NCBI GenBank assembly: GCA_947569705.1
Contig: CANOSP010000001.1
Span: forward strand, 186,001-250,000
DNA length: 64,000 nucleotides
Source: an uncultured Erysipelotrichaceae bacterium
Lineage (GTDB): Bacteria; Bacillota_I; Bacilli_A; Erysipelotrichales; Erysipelotrichaceae
Reading direction: 5' to 3'
A program made the position numbers and the translations under genes. Positions 3,298 to 32,876 of the stretch are shown here, piece by piece; within the stretch, counting starts at the first letter, position 1, and each line of letters opens with the position of its first letter. The notes beneath the pieces are model-generated. The model saw nothing but the letters and a program-made list of their open reading frames with translations. It was not told where the DNA came from and searched no databases.

Positions 3298-4734
3298 ATG
3301 AAAAAACAACCCGGTTGGGCGCTTCCCGATTTAAAGGCAGCTCAAGTGCGCACAAAGCAGGAAGCAGCGATCCGACATGAATTATTCAGCGTGCCTGATT
3401 CCATACAGGGAATCGGTGTCAATAAACGCTATTTTTTAAGAACCTACGGCTGTCAGGCAAATGAGCGAGACGGTGAAACAATTGCCGGTATTATGGAAAC
3501 ACTCGGCTTCACTGCCACAGCTTTGGAAGAAAATGCCGATGTGATTATTTTGAATACATGTGCAATTCGTAAAAATGCCGAAGATAAAGTATTGGGCGAA
3601 TTAGGCGCATTAAAACGACTGTATAAAGAAAATCCCGATTTGGTGATCGGTCTTTGTGGCTGTATGGCACAGGAAGAAGAAATCGTACAGCTTTTATTAG
3701 CGAAATACCCGCAGGTTAAACTTATTTTCGGAACGCATAATATCCATCGCTTGCCGATGCTTCTGGCACAGGCAATGCAGAAGGAAAAAACAATTGAAGT
3801 ATTTTCGGCAGAAGGTGAAGTGATCGAAGATTTACCGGTGAAGCGCTTCGGCAAGCATAAGGCATGGGTCAATATCATGTACGGATGCGATAAATTCTGT
3901 ACATACTGCATTGTCCCTTATACAAGAGGAAAAGAGCGCTCTCGCGCAACCGAAGATATTTTGAAGGAAGTGCGTGAACTGGCAGAACAAGGCTATCAAG
4001 AGGTTACTTTATTGGGGCAGAATGTCAATTCCTACGGCAAGGATTTGGCACTGCAGGGCGGTTTCGCGACTTTACTCGCTGAGTGCGCAAAAATCGGTAT
4101 TCCGCGCATTCGCTTTATGACCTCGCATCCGTGGGATTTCAGTGATGAAATGATTGATGTGATTGCGCAATATGATAATATTATGCCGTTTATTCACTTA
4201 CCGGTACAATCCGGTGACAGCGCTGTTTTGAAGCTGATGGGCAGACGTTATACCATTGAGGAATATCGTGATTTATTTCATCGAATTAAGAATCGTGTGA
4301 AAAACTGTGCGTTTTCCACCGATATTATTGTCGGCTTTCCCAACGAGAGTGAGGAACAGTTTCAACATACATTGGATATTGTGAATGAGTGTCAGTTTGA
4401 CAATGCTTATACCTTTATCTATTCACCGCGAGAGGGAACACCGGCTGCGAAAATGACGGACAATATACCGCTTGAAGTGAAGCAGGAACGTCTGTATCGT
4501 TTAAATGAACTTGTAAATCACTATGCGAACTTAAATAATGCGGCGTATCAAGGAAAAATCGTTAAGGTACTGGTAGATGGTCCGAGTAAAAAGAATCCGC
4601 AGATCACCAGCGGTTATACAGAGACAAATAAGCTTGTGAACTTTGTGAGTAAAAATGCACAGTGCGGTGATATTGTCGAAGTGCGTATCACTGATGCGAA
4701 AACATGGTCATTAGACGGTGAACAGGTAGGATAA
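3298..4734 (+). CDS. miaB: tRNA-2-methylthio-N6-dimethylallyladenosine synthase
   Basis: MiaB adds the methylthio group to C2 of N6-isopentenyl-A37 in tRNAs reading UNN codons. The product (478 residues) has the N-terminal MTTase domain with three cluster cysteines ('YGCQANERD', 'LNTCAIRKNAEDKV', 'GLCGCMAQ'), a radical-SAM motif CDKFCTYC near residue 200, and a C-terminal TRAM-like domain ending near 'VEVRITDAKTWSLDG'. The RNAEDK signature separates MiaB from the MtaB paralogue at 60.4 kb. AAGGAG (3286-3291) favours ATG 3298; ATG 3295 is also in frame but sits only three bases after it. The roughly 50-residue N-terminal extension before the MTTase domain is common in Firmicutes MiaB. Confidence 0.95.
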   Translation: MKKQPGWALPDLKAAQVRTKQEAAIRHELFSVPDSIQGIGVNKRYFLRTYGCQANERDGETIAGIMETLGFTATALEENADVIILNTCAIRKNAEDKVLGELGALKRLYKENPDLVIGLCGCMAQEEEIVQLLLAKYPQVKLIFGTHNIHRLPMLLAQAMQKEKTIEVFSAEGEVIEDLPVKRFGKHKAWVNIMYGCDKFCTYCIVPYTRGKERSRATEDILKEVRELAEQGYQEVTLLGQNVNSYGKDLALQGGFATLLAECAKIGIPRIRFMTSHPWDFSDEMIDVIAQYDNIMPFIHLPVQSGDSAVLKLMGRRYTIEEYRDLFHRIKNRVKNCAFSTDIIVGFPNESEEQFQHTLDIVNECQFDNAYTFIYSPREGTPAAKMTDNIPLEVKQERLYRLNELVNHYANLNNAAYQGKIVKVLVDGPSKKNPQITSGYTETNKLVNFVSKNAQCGDIVEVRITDAKTWSLDGEQVG

Positions 4735-4882: not shown

Positions 4883-6544
4883 ATGGATCAAGTACGCATA
4901 TTTGCGCTCGGAGGACTCGATGAAAACGGTAAAAACATGTATGTAGTCGAAGTCAATGAAGCGATTTTTGTGATTGAAGCAGGTTTGAAATTTCCCGATA
5001 CCGAACAATTAGGAGTGGAGTTTATCATTCCTGATTTCTCATATTTAATTGAAAACAAGGAACGCATCAAGGGAATCTTTATCACCCACGGTCATGATGA
5101 TGTCGTTGCGGCGTTGCCGTATTTGCTGAAACAGATCAAAGCACCTGTTTATACCGGAGCGCTGACCGCAAATATTATTCATGACATGTTGAAAAAGGAA
5201 AATGTGAAGGGGGTAAAAATCCATCGCATCAAGCGTTCCAGTGTGCAGCGAATCAGCGGTGTGAAGGTCAGAACTTTCCCGATGACACATGCATATCCCG
5301 ATAACTTCGGTGTTGCGATCATGAGTGATCAAGGAGCGATTGTCTATACCGGTGAATTTATCATTGATTATGATATGCTCTCAGAGCAGTATATTTGTGA
5401 TCTGAATGAATTAAGTGATATTGGAAAAAGCGGTGTATTATGCTTATTGAGTGAATCTCAGGGAGTAGAGCGTAGCGGTCATACGGCGCCGAATCATCGC
5501 ATTACCAATTTGATTGAGCCGATCTTTGAGAAAAATCACGGACGTATTTTGATTTCCGTGTATCGTCAAAGCTTATATCGAGTGATTGAAATCATTGAAA
5601 TCTGTAAGCGAATGAATAAACCGATCTATTTTCATGACAAGGAACTGCGTCAGCTGTTAAAGCAGCTGGAGGATATTAAGTATTATCAGGTTCCGCGCGA
5701 ATTGGAAGTAAAGGAATGGAACTTCAGCGATGGGGTGGAAGATGTAGTAATCGTCATCAGCGGATCAGGTAAAAATCTGTTCCGTACGATGAATAATATT
5801 GCGAATCATGAGGATTCTCGCGTATCATTTCGACCGAGTGATACGATTATTATGGCGTCTCCCGTTGTCAGCGGTACCGAAATGGAAGCAACCGACATGG
5901 AAAATGACATTTATAAGGAAGGCGGACATATTTTCTCGCTCAGCTCTAAGACGGTATTATCCATGCATCCCAGCAGTGAGGATTTAAAGATGATGCTGTA
6001 TCTGTTCAAGCCGAAGTATTATATTCCCGTCAAAGGAGAATATCGTCATTTGGTGATGAATGCGAATTTAGGCGTATCGATGGGATATTCACCGGATCGT
6101 ATTCTAATTTTGGATAACGGTCAGATTGCGGCATTTGAAAACGGTGTGTTAAAGAGTGCTTCTCAATATTTAGAACTGGAAGATACATTAATTGACGGTA
6201 AGGAAAATTGGGATGTGACCGGAGTCGTTTTAAAGGATCGTGAGACGCTTTCTACCGACGGAGTTATGATTGTCGGTGTCGGTGTTAATATGAAAACAAA
6301 AAAAGTGATTAACGGACCGGATGTACAAACGCGCGGGCTGATCTATTTAAAGGATGCGGATTATATTGTCAAAGAGGTTGCCGGTATGATGGAAGAGTGT
6401 ATCGCCACTGCCGTGAAAGAAAAGCGTTATGATAATTTAACGGTTCGCGGGGAAGCCAGAGATAAAATTACGAGGTATTTAATGAAGGAAACAGGCAAGC
6501 GCCCGATGGTGTTGCCGGTGATTATGGAAATTAATGTAGGATAG
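4883..6544 (+). CDS. rnj: RNase J family protein with degenerate metal site (J2-like)
   Basis: Ribonuclease J enzymes are beta-lactamase/beta-CASP exo- and endonucleases of Firmicutes RNA decay. This 553-residue protein has the full architecture: metallo-beta-lactamase fold, beta-CASP insert and C-terminal domain. The ligand set is damaged: H69-G-H71-D-D73 is intact but the next His is Val74, the TGDF aspartate is Glu158, and the His of PVHGEYR is Lys384; H136 and H362 remain. Loss of several ligands is typical of RNase J2-type subunits, which pair with an active J1. I infer a J2-like structural or regulatory partner with weak or no intrinsic activity; an active copy should lie elsewhere in the genome. 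ftsK begins 19 bases downstream, so the two are likely co-transcribed. Confidence 0.9.
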   Translation: MDQVRIFALGGLDENGKNMYVVEVNEAIFVIEAGLKFPDTEQLGVEFIIPDFSYLIENKERIKGIFITHGHDDVVAALPYLLKQIKAPVYTGALTANIIHDMLKKENVKGVKIHRIKRSSVQRISGVKVRTFPMTHAYPDNFGVAIMSDQGAIVYTGEFIIDYDMLSEQYICDLNELSDIGKSGVLCLLSESQGVERSGHTAPNHRITNLIEPIFEKNHGRILISVYRQSLYRVIEIIEICKRMNKPIYFHDKELRQLLKQLEDIKYYQVPRELEVKEWNFSDGVEDVVIVISGSGKNLFRTMNNIANHEDSRVSFRPSDTIIMASPVVSGTEMEATDMENDIYKEGGHIFSLSSKTVLSMHPSSEDLKMMLYLFKPKYYIPVKGEYRHLVMNANLGVSMGYSPDRILILDNGQIAAFENGVLKSASQYLELEDTLIDGKENWDVTGVVLKDRETLSTDGVMIVGVGVNMKTKKVINGPDVQTRGLIYLKDADYIVKEVAGMMEECIATAVKEKRYDNLTVRGEARDKITRYLMKETGKRPMVLPVIMEINVG

Positions 6545-11722: not shown

Positions 11723-11751
11723 TTGAGCAATCAAACAGAAATTACTATAAT
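11723..11751 (+). promoter_or_regulatory. housekeeping promoter for ssb
   Basis: TTGAGC (11723-11728), 17-bp spacer, TATAAT (11746-11751). The start point would be near 11758, at the first base of the dyad at 11757-11779. Confidence 0.75.
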
Positions 11752-11756
11752 ATGCC

Positions 11757-11779
11757 TGTACATCGAAGAATGATGTACA
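11757..11779 (+). promoter_or_regulatory. perfect dyad at the ssb transcription start
   Basis: TGTACATC (11757-11764) and GATGTACA (11772-11779) are perfect inverted repeats separated by GAAGAAT. The site could be a 5'-end mRNA hairpin or a protein operator. Confidence 0.6.
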
Positions 11780-11810: not shown

Positions 11811-12125
11811 GTGATCAATAATGTGGTACTGACAGGACGCATCGCGGAGCTGCCGAAGCTTCGTGAAACTGCGACCGGTATTAAGTATGCGACAATTTTA
11901 CTGGATATTGTAAGACCGTTTAAAAACAGTAACGGTATTTATGACAGTGATAAAATTTCCGTTACTTTATGGAAAGGAATCGCAGAAACAGCCGGTGAGG
12001 TTTGTAAGGTCGGCGATATGCTCGGGGTCAAAGGTCGCATTCAGACATACAGCGTTGAGAAGGAAACACAGACCTACTATAACTATGAAGTAGTAGCGGA
12101 ACACGTTTCTTTTATGTCAGTATAA
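11811..12125 (+). CDS. ssb: short single-stranded DNA-binding protein
   Basis: This 104-residue OB-fold protein opens 'MINNVVLTGRIAELPKLRETATG' in the usual SSB way and has the 'ISVTLWKGIAE' strand and 'VGDMLGVKGRIQT' turn. It lacks the acidic glycine/proline-rich C-terminal tail that recruits partner proteins in full-length SSB (about 170 residues). It thus resembles the secondary, competence-type SsbB. GTG 11811 is the start: GGAGGAGG ends six bases upstream, and the nearby ATG at 11805 runs into a stop after two codons. The gene has its own strong promoter and is followed at once by the structured RNA region 12126-12356, with which it probably shares a transcript. Confidence 0.88.
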   Translation: MINNVVLTGRIAELPKLRETATGIKYATILLDIVRPFKNSNGIYDSDKISVTLWKGIAETAGEVCKVGDMLGVKGRIQTYSVEKETQTYYNYEVVAEHVSFMSV

Positions 12126-12356
12126 TTTATGCCCTTCGAGTGAAATCCTTTCTTCTTGCTCGTACATAGATTTTGTATTCATATTCTCTAACTCTCATAC
12201 TAATGAAGCCATATGCAGGGTTTGATCGAAGGGCATAAAGGACTTAAAAAAGCTAGAACTCTGCATATGGTGATATATAATCAGCCCAAATGCCGGTGAA
12301 ACGGCAAATCACAGGCGTTGTACAGCTTCCCTTTCTTGTACATCGTCTGTTTTTTT
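12126..12356 (+). ncRNA. structured RNA with predicted pseudoknot, 3' of ssb
   Basis: No gene lies in this 230-nt stretch. It has dense complementary pairing. Helix A is a perfect 14-bp stem (12126-12139 with 12226-12239). Helix B is a perfect 10-bp stem (12209-12218 with 12261-12270), extendable to 16 bp with G-U pairs. B starts inside A's loop and closes outside it, so the two interleave as an H-type pseudoknot. A hairpin TGCCG/CGGCA (12291-12306, loop GTGAAA) and an intrinsic terminator (12311-12356) follow on the same strand, which sets the orientation. It begins right after the ssb stop and may be a 3' UTR element or a processed small RNA. I do not recognise a known family; no tmRNA, 6S or RNase P consensus is visible. 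Confidence 0.7.
12311..12356 (+). terminator. terminator of the ssb / structured RNA transcript
   Basis: A 14-position stem pairs 12311-12324 with 12337-12350, with one T-T mismatch and one G-U pair, followed by seven Ts (12350-12356). Confidence 0.85.
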
Positions 12357-12390
12357 GTATGCTTGGATTTAACGGAAAGGGGATTTACAT

Positions 12391-12422
12391 AAAAAAACGA
12401 TATGATGTATATCTCATATCGT
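12391..12422 (-). terminator. terminator of rpsD
   Basis: ACGATATGA and TCATATCGT (12397-12405, 12414-12422) pair perfectly. The T run on the minus strand corresponds to the As at 12391-12397. Confidence 0.85.
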
Positions 12423-12431
12423 CTTTGTTCA

Positions 12432-13034
12432 TTAACGGTTGTAGAATTCTACTACCAGCAACTCATTTACTTCCGGATTTAATTCACTGCGTTCCGGTAA
12501 ACGTAAGTAAGTACCTTTTTTAGTGTCTTTGTTGAAATCAACAAATGCCGGTGTATTCAAGGAAGCTTCTAAGGATTCATTGATCACTTTTAAGTTTCTT
12601 GATTTTTCTTTGATTTCGATTGTGCTGCCAACTTTAACCTGCGCACTCGGAATATCACATTTTTTACCGTTTAATAAAATGTGACCGTGGTTTACCAACT
12701 GACGAGCTGCTCTTCTTGTCGGAGCGATTCCCATACGATAAACGATGTTATCCAATCTGCTTTCCAGCAGGCACAGGAAGTTATCGCCGGTTACACCTTT
12801 CATACGTGTTGCTTTTGTGAATGTGTTGTAGAACTGGCGCTCATTTACTCCGTACATAAAACGAATTTTCTGTTTTTCACGAAGCTGTAAGCCGTAGTTC
12901 GTCAGCTTTACACGTTTTGTCGGTCCGTGCTGTCCCGGTGCATACTGACGTCTTTGTAATTCTTTTCCGTTTTCCAAAATGGAGAATCCCAAACGACGAG
13001 ATACCTTCCAAGTTGGACCTGTAATTCTTGACAT
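12432..13034 (-). CDS. rpsD: 30S ribosomal protein S4
   Basis: S4 nucleates assembly of the 30S body by binding 16S rRNA. The 200-residue product has the bacterial S4 N-terminal domain ('[11 protein letters not shown]') and the S4 RNA-binding fold ('[20 protein letters not shown]'), and ends '[11 protein letters not shown]'. N-terminal zinc-binding cysteines are absent, so this is the zinc-free (C-minus) form. GGAGG lies seven bases before the ATG. The gene is monocistronic with a strong promoter, a leader of about 175 nt and its own terminator. S4 represses its own mRNA through the leader in Bacillus, which probably applies here. Confidence 0.97.
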
Positions 13035-31527: not shown

Positions 31528-32526
31528 ATGACGACAATTCAATTTCATCAAGTCTATGTTGCTTCGCGAAGTGCTGTTGCGGGAGCTTTGGAAGCACAGG
31601 GACCGCTGCGGAAATATTTTGATAAGACTTATGAGGATAATTACTGTAATGAAAAAAGCTTTGAAAAGGCAGAGCGTGCAATGGTATATGATGCCTGTGA
31701 TATTGCTTTGCGCAAAGCAAACCAAAAGCCTTCGGATCTGGATATTATTTTCGGCGGCGATTTGATCAATCAATTAACCTCATCACATTACTTTGCTCGT
31801 GATACCAATGTGCCGTTTATCGGGATGTATGCGGCATGTGCAACAAGCTCTTTGATTATCGGTCAGGCAGCGATGTGGATCGAACAAGGATATGCCAAAC
31901 AAGCACTTGCCTTTACGAGTTCTCATGTCGCAACGGCAGAGCGGCAATTTCGCTATCCGAATGAATACGGCGTACAGAAAAAAGCGACAACGACATCAAC
32001 AGTCACCGGTGCCGGCGCTGTCCTTTTAAGCAGTAAGCCTTCACTTATTAAAGTCAGTGCCTTTACCCCCGGTAAAATTTGTGACTGGAATTACAGTGAT
32101 GCGAATGATATGGGTGTGGCAATGGCTCCGGCAGCCTATGATACATTAAATCGTCATTTTCAAAATACCAATACTGACTTCACCGATTATGATTTAATTG
32201 CGACCGGTGATCTTTCACAGCTTGGTTTTTCTTTCCTGATGGACTTGCTTTATCAAGATGAGCATCCGGTAGAGCATCGACTTCATGACTGCGGTTTGAT
32301 GATTTATGATACCGGCAAGCAGGATGTATTTTGCGGCGGCAGCGGCTGTGCCTGCAGTATGTGTGTTTCTATGGCGAAGCTGTTGCAGGAGCTGGAGCGG
32401 GGGACATATCAGCGAGTTATGGTAATTGCGACAGGCGCTTTATTATCCCCGGTTGCCATTCAGCAAAAAGAAAGTATCCCTTGTATTGCCCATGCGATCG
32501 TCTATGAAAGGAGTGAGGGGAAATGA
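31528..32526 (+). CDS. spoVAD: stage V sporulation protein AD
   Basis: SpoVAD has a thiolase-like fold and binds dipicolinic acid. The 332-residue product shows the family blocks '[19 protein letters not shown]', '[12 protein letters not shown]' and '[18 protein letters not shown]', and ends in the thiolase-type '[20 protein letters not shown]'. It starts three bases after spoVAC, with GGAGG overlapping the end of that gene. Peripheral location on the spore inner membrane is expected from the family. Confidence 0.95.
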
Positions 32527-32876
32527 TGATGGTATTTAACGCCTTTCTTGTCTGCGGCACCATTTGTTTAGCCGGTCAGCTGCTTTATGATTATACAAAG
32601 CTGACTCCCGGTCACATCACTTCAATTTTTGTGGTTTTCGGTGCGGCATTAGATACATTTTCCCTGTATGATCGCCTGATTGAATTTGCGGGTGCAGGAG
32701 CCAGCTTACCGATTACAAGCTTCGGTCATTCATTGATTCACGGAGCTTTAACAGCGGCTCAAGAACAGGGAGTGATGGGAATACTGCTGGGAATGTTTGA
32801 TTTGACGGCGGCAGGCATTACCGCGGCAATTTTATTTGCTTTTTTAGCTGCCGTGATCTTTAAACCCCGCACATGA
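32523..32876 (+). CDS. spoVAE: stage V sporulation protein AE (SpoVAEb type)
   Basis: A 117-residue membrane protein of the SpoVAC/SpoVAEb family with '[19 protein letters not shown]', '[21 protein letters not shown]' and a hydrophobic C-terminal helix. It forms the dipicolinate channel with SpoVAC and SpoVAD. The first of three consecutive ATG codons (32523) overlaps the spoVAD stop; AGGAG about ten bases upstream does not distinguish them well. It overlaps spoVAF by four bases, so translation is coupled through the operon. Confidence 0.92.

Follow-up and report, generated by a model that had tools for sequence, protein, structure and literature searches.

A predicted, genus-restricted pseudoknot in the 3' UTR of ssb in Erysipelotrichaceae: a candidate 3'-UTR-derived small RNA

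The ssb locus and the architecture of the element

The window, a stretch of 64,000 nucleotides from an uncultured Erysipelotrichaceae bacterium, carries on its + strand an ssb gene (11811-12125, stop TAA at 12123-12125) encoding a short SSB paralogue of 104 aa without the acidic C-terminal tail. NCBIfam single-stranded DNA-binding protein models match the product (PRK06752 with E=1e-19, below the curated cut-off), and two longer SSB frames are found elsewhere in the same genome. The next gene, rpsD (12432-13034), lies on the opposite strand and is convergent with ssb; at about 12383-12425 there is another hairpin, whose U-run is oriented as rpsD is. Because rpsD is convergent, the element described here is no riboswitch or leader for this gene. 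About 5 kb upstream of ssb, at 4883-6544, the window encodes an RNase J homologue (TIGR00649, 428 bits). The genome has two such homologues, the second on contig C20, and Hfq was not detected in it.

Upstream of ssb, the sequence TTGAGC-17-TATAAT (11723-11751, + strand) matches the promoter consensus at 10 of 12 positions, in a scan where chance yields about as many matches as are found. A TTTG...ATAAT sequence stands at the same position at four related loci of the genus (L002 to L005), and a weaker version in L007. We infer that this promoter serves ssb and the RNA too. Near the ssb stop, neither the scan nor the relatives revealed a consensus or conserved promoter; a TATAAT at 12121-12126, overlapping the stop, is not conserved in relatives. 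Where the ssb mRNA is expected to begin (11757-11779), an 8-bp hairpin TGTACATC/GATGTACA is present in the window and L002, and is weaker or absent in L003-L005.

The structured 3' UTR measures 231 nt, from the ssb stop to the terminator end at 12356, all on the + strand. Its first helix, P1, consists of 14 perfect pairs between TTTATGCCCTTCGA (12126-12139), which begins at the base right after the ssb stop, and TCGAAGGGCATAAA (12226-12239). The second, PK, joins 12209-12222, inside the P1 loop, to 12257-12270, outside P1. An earlier note, made by reading the letters alone, had described P1 at this size and a PK of 10 bp (12209-12218/12261-12270). Both are exact, and PK extends to 14 pairs including one G-U, leaving P1 untouched, or to 16 bp if a further G-U is allowed. 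As proposed in that note, P1 and PK interleave and would thus form an H-type pseudoknot of about 28 bp altogether, whose helices have nearly equal energies (P1 -21.5, PK -20.7 kcal/mol).

The three loops differ strongly in size. Loop 1 (L1, 12140-12208) is 69 nt long, 67-87 nt across the window and relatives, and appears mostly unpaired from folding it alone and from the alignments: by itself it folds with -3.3 kcal/mol in the window, 0.0 in L003/L004 and -10.3 in L005. It contains a pyrimidine-rich segment at 12146-12156, TCCTTTCTTCT, with TCCTNTCTTC proposed as the exposed seed, and a conserved AACTCTC at 12190-12196. Loop 2 (12223-12225) has 3 nt, and none in L005; being so short (0-3 nt), it lets the P1 and PK helices stack end to end. 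Loop 3 (12240-12256), which must cross P1, is A-rich and has 17 nt (16-18 nt in relatives). An L1/L3 pairing and a GAGT/ACTC helix within L1, both judged by eye, were inconsistent across relatives and were dropped.

Downstream of the pseudoknot stand, on the same strand, the further hairpin and the terminator that the earlier note had placed there. The hairpin, TGCCG/CGGCA (12291-12306), is replaced in L005 by a longer one of other sequence. It is followed by AATCACAGG (12307-12315), invariant in all relatives, of which AATC is unpaired and the remainder enters the stem of the intrinsic terminator (12311-12356; stem 12311-12350, U-run 12350-12356). The terminator loop, 12326-12335, is again pyrimidine-rich (CTTCCCTTTC).

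Pairing of this extent was held in the earlier note to be very improbable by chance, and the controls agree. None of 300 dinucleotide shuffles gave perfect helices of 14+10 or 10+10 bp that interleave, and nowhere else in the 64-kb window do two perfect helices of 10 bp or more interleave (span up to 200). Four PK positions show G-U pairs, which would turn into A-C in the complementary strand. As the terminator's U-run is likewise a + strand feature, the RNA is assigned to this strand.

Covariation and distribution in relatives

The gap between ssb and rpsD, to which the earlier note had pointed as the place to look in relatives, is readable in five genomes of the genus (G000, G002, G004, G005 and G006, corresponding to the window and L002-L005). 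The element is present in all five, once per genome and directly after ssb. The strain 'bacterium c-19' carries a version 92% identical. Two genomes were left out of this count, G001, which is 66% complete and in which the locus was not found, and G003, whose contig ends inside ssb (L073/L007), shortly ahead of where the RNA would start. The five copies represent only three sequence lineages, window/L002, L003/L004 and L005 (the G004 copy), the last being the most diverged, with an ssb 75% identical. The distance from the ssb stop to the start of P1 is 0 nt in the window and L002, 3 nt in L003/L004 and about 8 nt in L005.

In the alignment of the core (A5), loops 2 and 3 and the stretch after PK were shortened in the other sequences to keep the strands in register, and L005, on which the covariation mostly rests, was registered by hand. 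All 56 cells of PK (14 pairs in four distinct sequences) are paired and 9 of the 14 pairs are changed on both sides, a level of covariation reached by none of 500 shuffles. In L005, PK reads GCAAATGATCTTCG/CGAAGGTCATTTGC, with all 14 pairs intact and over half of them changed in letters, and sliding a PK strand by 1-3 columns lowers pairing to 21-48%. P1 retains 12 contiguous pairs in L003/L004 and 11 in L005, with two compensatory pairs in its core (C-G to U-A and A-U to G-C); two further P1 changes counted at its outer end, where mismatches intervene, are less certain. Since there are only three lineages, these counts measure consistency and not an independent event per cell. Compensatory changes, on which the earlier note had staked the structure, are thus found in both helices and favour it.

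Other parts of the element are maintained as well. The terminator is folded and kept in the window and L002-L005 while its stem sequence changes, and the pyrimidine-rich character of the L1 and terminator-loop segments is kept across the genus. Identity in the RNA exceeds that at four-fold sites of ssb in L004 (77% vs 56%) and L005 (47% vs 33%), and the two are about equal in the nearest relative L002 (88% vs 86%). On these patterns of sequence change, we consider it very probable that P1 and PK form a conserved H-type pseudoknot.

Outside the genus, the 27 ssb loci of other genera are followed by a plain terminator or by another gene, never by the element. The covariance models R1 and R2 returned no convincing further copy in 394 relatives (R1) or in 273 genomes of the family and 395 genomes of the class (both R2), in search sets that overlap and with stricter filters in the large searches, so that distant copies could be missed. 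The diverged G004 copy escaped R1 and is found by R2, which was built with it. The weak model matches that were read correspond to terminators, coding sequence or repeats. Among them, a sequence repeated at five places in G386 (L107, L110-L112) lies before a short repeated frame and gives weak matches (29 bits); it is no homologue and probably a mobile or repeat element. A pattern search of viral contigs did not find the element, and other genes come after an ssb carried by one such contig (L081, 62% identical). Plasmids and phages likewise gave no match. As far as searched, the element is restricted to the genus, a small set of gut bacteria.

Comparison with known RNA families and coding potential

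The earlier note could assign the sequence to no known family, and neither could we: no Rfam family is reached at the gathering threshold, and a permissive local cmscan gives only noise. The RNA is absent from Rfam 15 and previously uncatalogued; the main text of three comparative ncRNA surveys does not mention ssb. The suggestion of a raiA-type RNA, made in the same note, did not hold. The raiA model RF03072 had no match in 41 relatives, a result that is weak alone as the control genomes are silent too. With raiA RNA, the element shares a length of about 210 nt, a high degree of structure with pseudoknots and its presence in Firmicutes. However, the published raiA fold comprises eight helices with pseudoknots of 7 and 2 bp and is found in over 2500 species (PMC11751092), whereas the RNA described here is tied to ssb in one genus.

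Other identities were considered in turn. For 6S RNA (RF00013), the genome offers a single candidate, which lies on contig C6 and not at this locus; this sequence (L052, G000:C6:67629-67788), which scores 37 bits against an Rfam gathering score of 46.4, is probably a diverged 6S RNA. ARAGORN finds no tmRNA or tRNA in the window. HDV-like ribozymes adopt a nested double pseudoknot in which the 5' strands of P1 and P2 are adjacent and P3 is inserted between the P2 5' and P1 3' strands; here the 5' strands are 67-87 nt apart and loop 2, with 0-3 nt, leaves no room for P3. RNAs of type III toxin-antitoxin systems consist of pseudoknots repeated in tandem ahead of the toxin gene, whereas the present element is a single unit whose next gene is the convergent rpsD.

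The region was described in the earlier note as devoid of coding content, and this reading stands: codon 5 is a TGA in the window and L002, where indels also disrupt the reading frame. In L003/L004, a long open frame (about 4320-4560 of these loci) runs from an ATG in P1 toward the terminator; it is interrupted in the window and L002, and L005 has it in another frame.

Possible roles of the ssb 3' UTR

Our results point to a real, uncatalogued and genus-restricted RNA, the structured 3' UTR of ssb and a candidate 3'-UTR-derived small RNA, whose function we infer. In the explanation that we tentatively prefer, with a probability of roughly 0.45 as a whole, the ssb 3' UTR pseudoknot would give rise to an RNase J-resistant small RNA with pyrimidine-rich loops. 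One transcript would run from the ssb promoter near 11723-11751 to the terminator at 12356. Its ssb coding part would be cleaved or decay, and the 5'-to-3' exonuclease RNase J would stop at P1/PK. With its 3' end guarded by the terminator, the remaining piece of about 230 nt would persist as a stable 3'-UTR-derived small RNA. L1 and the terminator loop, through their exposed pyrimidine-rich segments, could then base-pair with target mRNAs at purine stretches that resemble Shine-Dalgarno sequences.

By its sequence, the element is a candidate type II 3'-UTR-derived sRNA, located within the 3' UTR and using the terminator of the mRNA. In bacteria with RNase J, protective 5' structures are expected in such RNAs, and stem-loops enclose the 5' ends of the described examples RsaC and s-SodF (PMC8406224). 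Like RsaC, from the mntABC 3' UTR of Staphylococcus aureus, and s-SodF of Streptomyces coelicolor, the ssb RNA would be an mRNA 3' end that ends at the mRNA's terminator and has its 5' border buried in structure, in an RNase J bacterium (PMC8406224). It differs from both in having an H-type pseudoknot of about 28 bp instead of a stem-loop; parent gene, sequence and lineage are unrelated, and its processing is putative. Arrest of RNase J is suggested by the two RNase J homologues, the lack of a detected Hfq and the published protective 5' structures (PMC8406224). We give about even odds to the accumulation of a stable processed RNA.

The last step is more doubtful. In staphylococci, binding of C-rich sRNA sequences to Shine-Dalgarno sequences is a known mode, and these C-rich segments resemble the pyrimidine-rich L1 and terminator-loop segments of the ssb RNA (PMC3961350). 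Yet L1 is predicted to pair with the other ribosome-binding sites of the window no better than shuffled L1 does, the best target among the window genes being matched by 5 of 60 shuffled versions. The start region of a spoVAE-like gene (32478-32537) is predicted to form with L1 a duplex of -30.4 kcal/mol, which as the best of 49 genes is not beyond chance. The idea of an open seed is also weakened because the pyrimidine-rich part of L1 can pair locally in L005. Target pairing through the pyrimidine-rich loops may occur, and we hold it to be rather unlikely.

The main rival is a purely cis role, in which the pseudoknot affects termination or ribosome release, or keeps the ssb mRNA from being degraded, without a distinct RNA being produced. 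The P1 start, 0-8 nt past the stop, falls inside the expected footprint of a ribosome at the stop codon. Termination and P1 formation would then be mutually exclusive: the ribosome would cover the P1 5' strand, and folding would report ssb translation. The constant linkage of the element to ssb fits such a role. On the other hand, protection alone needs no conserved unpaired AATC(ACAGG), AACTCTC or pyrimidine-rich terminator loop, and other genera of the family manage with a plain terminator or with nothing similar after ssb. A cis role without a separate RNA is thus a serious alternative that we find somewhat less probable still than target pairing.

The elaborate fold and the conserved unpaired bases could also denote a small RNP core, or the site where a protein binds, be it SSB, ribosomal protein S4, whose gene rpsD adjoins, or some other RNA-binding protein. 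For S4, binding to a pseudoknot has precedent. However, rpsD is on the opposite strand, so the RNA lies outside its leader, and searches with the models turned up no further copy in these genomes; we regard a protein-binding function as unlikely.

Repression of ssb by its own 3' UTR is improbable. The precedent is the long icaR 3' UTR of S. aureus, with a pyrimidine-rich motif complementary to the Shine-Dalgarno sequence (PMC3868564). The ssb RNA recalls both features: in the window, the ribosome-binding site of ssb contains GAAAGGA, the complement of TCCTTTC in L1. In contrast to icaR, such own-site pairing is unsupported for ssb, the duplex being matched by shuffled L1 in 124 of 200 cases in the window, 160 in L002, 147 in L004 and 198 in L005. 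To our knowledge, the icaR model includes no pseudoknot.

A diverged member of a known family (raiA, 6S, tmRNA or other) would agree with a length of about 210-230 nt plus a pseudoknot, as in raiA, but is very improbable given the Rfam result, the silence of RF03072, the 6S candidate elsewhere, the lack of tmRNA and the different raiA fold. Weakest of all, inverted repeats acting at the DNA level of the convergent ssb/rpsD junction, with no RNA role, hardly accommodate the tolerance of G-U at four PK positions, the + strand U-run and the other hairpin, whose U-run faces the rpsD direction.

Beyond the small RNA that we favour, the position of P1 brings to mind viral xrRNAs, which form a ring-like fold around the 5' end. 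In both cases a 5'-to-3' exonuclease would be halted by a pseudoknot that borders a 3' UTR fragment on its 5' side; the analogy is mechanistic, since xrRNAs are viral and ring-like, whereas here a plain H-type pseudoknot is predicted and resistance is drawn by analogy. A bacterial cellular exonuclease-resistant pseudoknot, acting as a mechanical RNase J stop right behind a stop codon and possibly gated by the ribosome, is a distant prospect, a little less probable than the protein-binding site. If true, the RNA would fold and be stabilised only while ssb is untranslated.

Two long interleaved helices backed by compensatory changes and absent from Rfam 15 are uncommon. With its position behind a stop codon, in an organism with RNase J and in which Hfq was undetected, the element would allow a clean test of the stabilisation of 3'-UTR RNAs. 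That it is confined to one genus points to a recent origin, and it may thereby show how 3' UTRs come to acquire structured RNAs.
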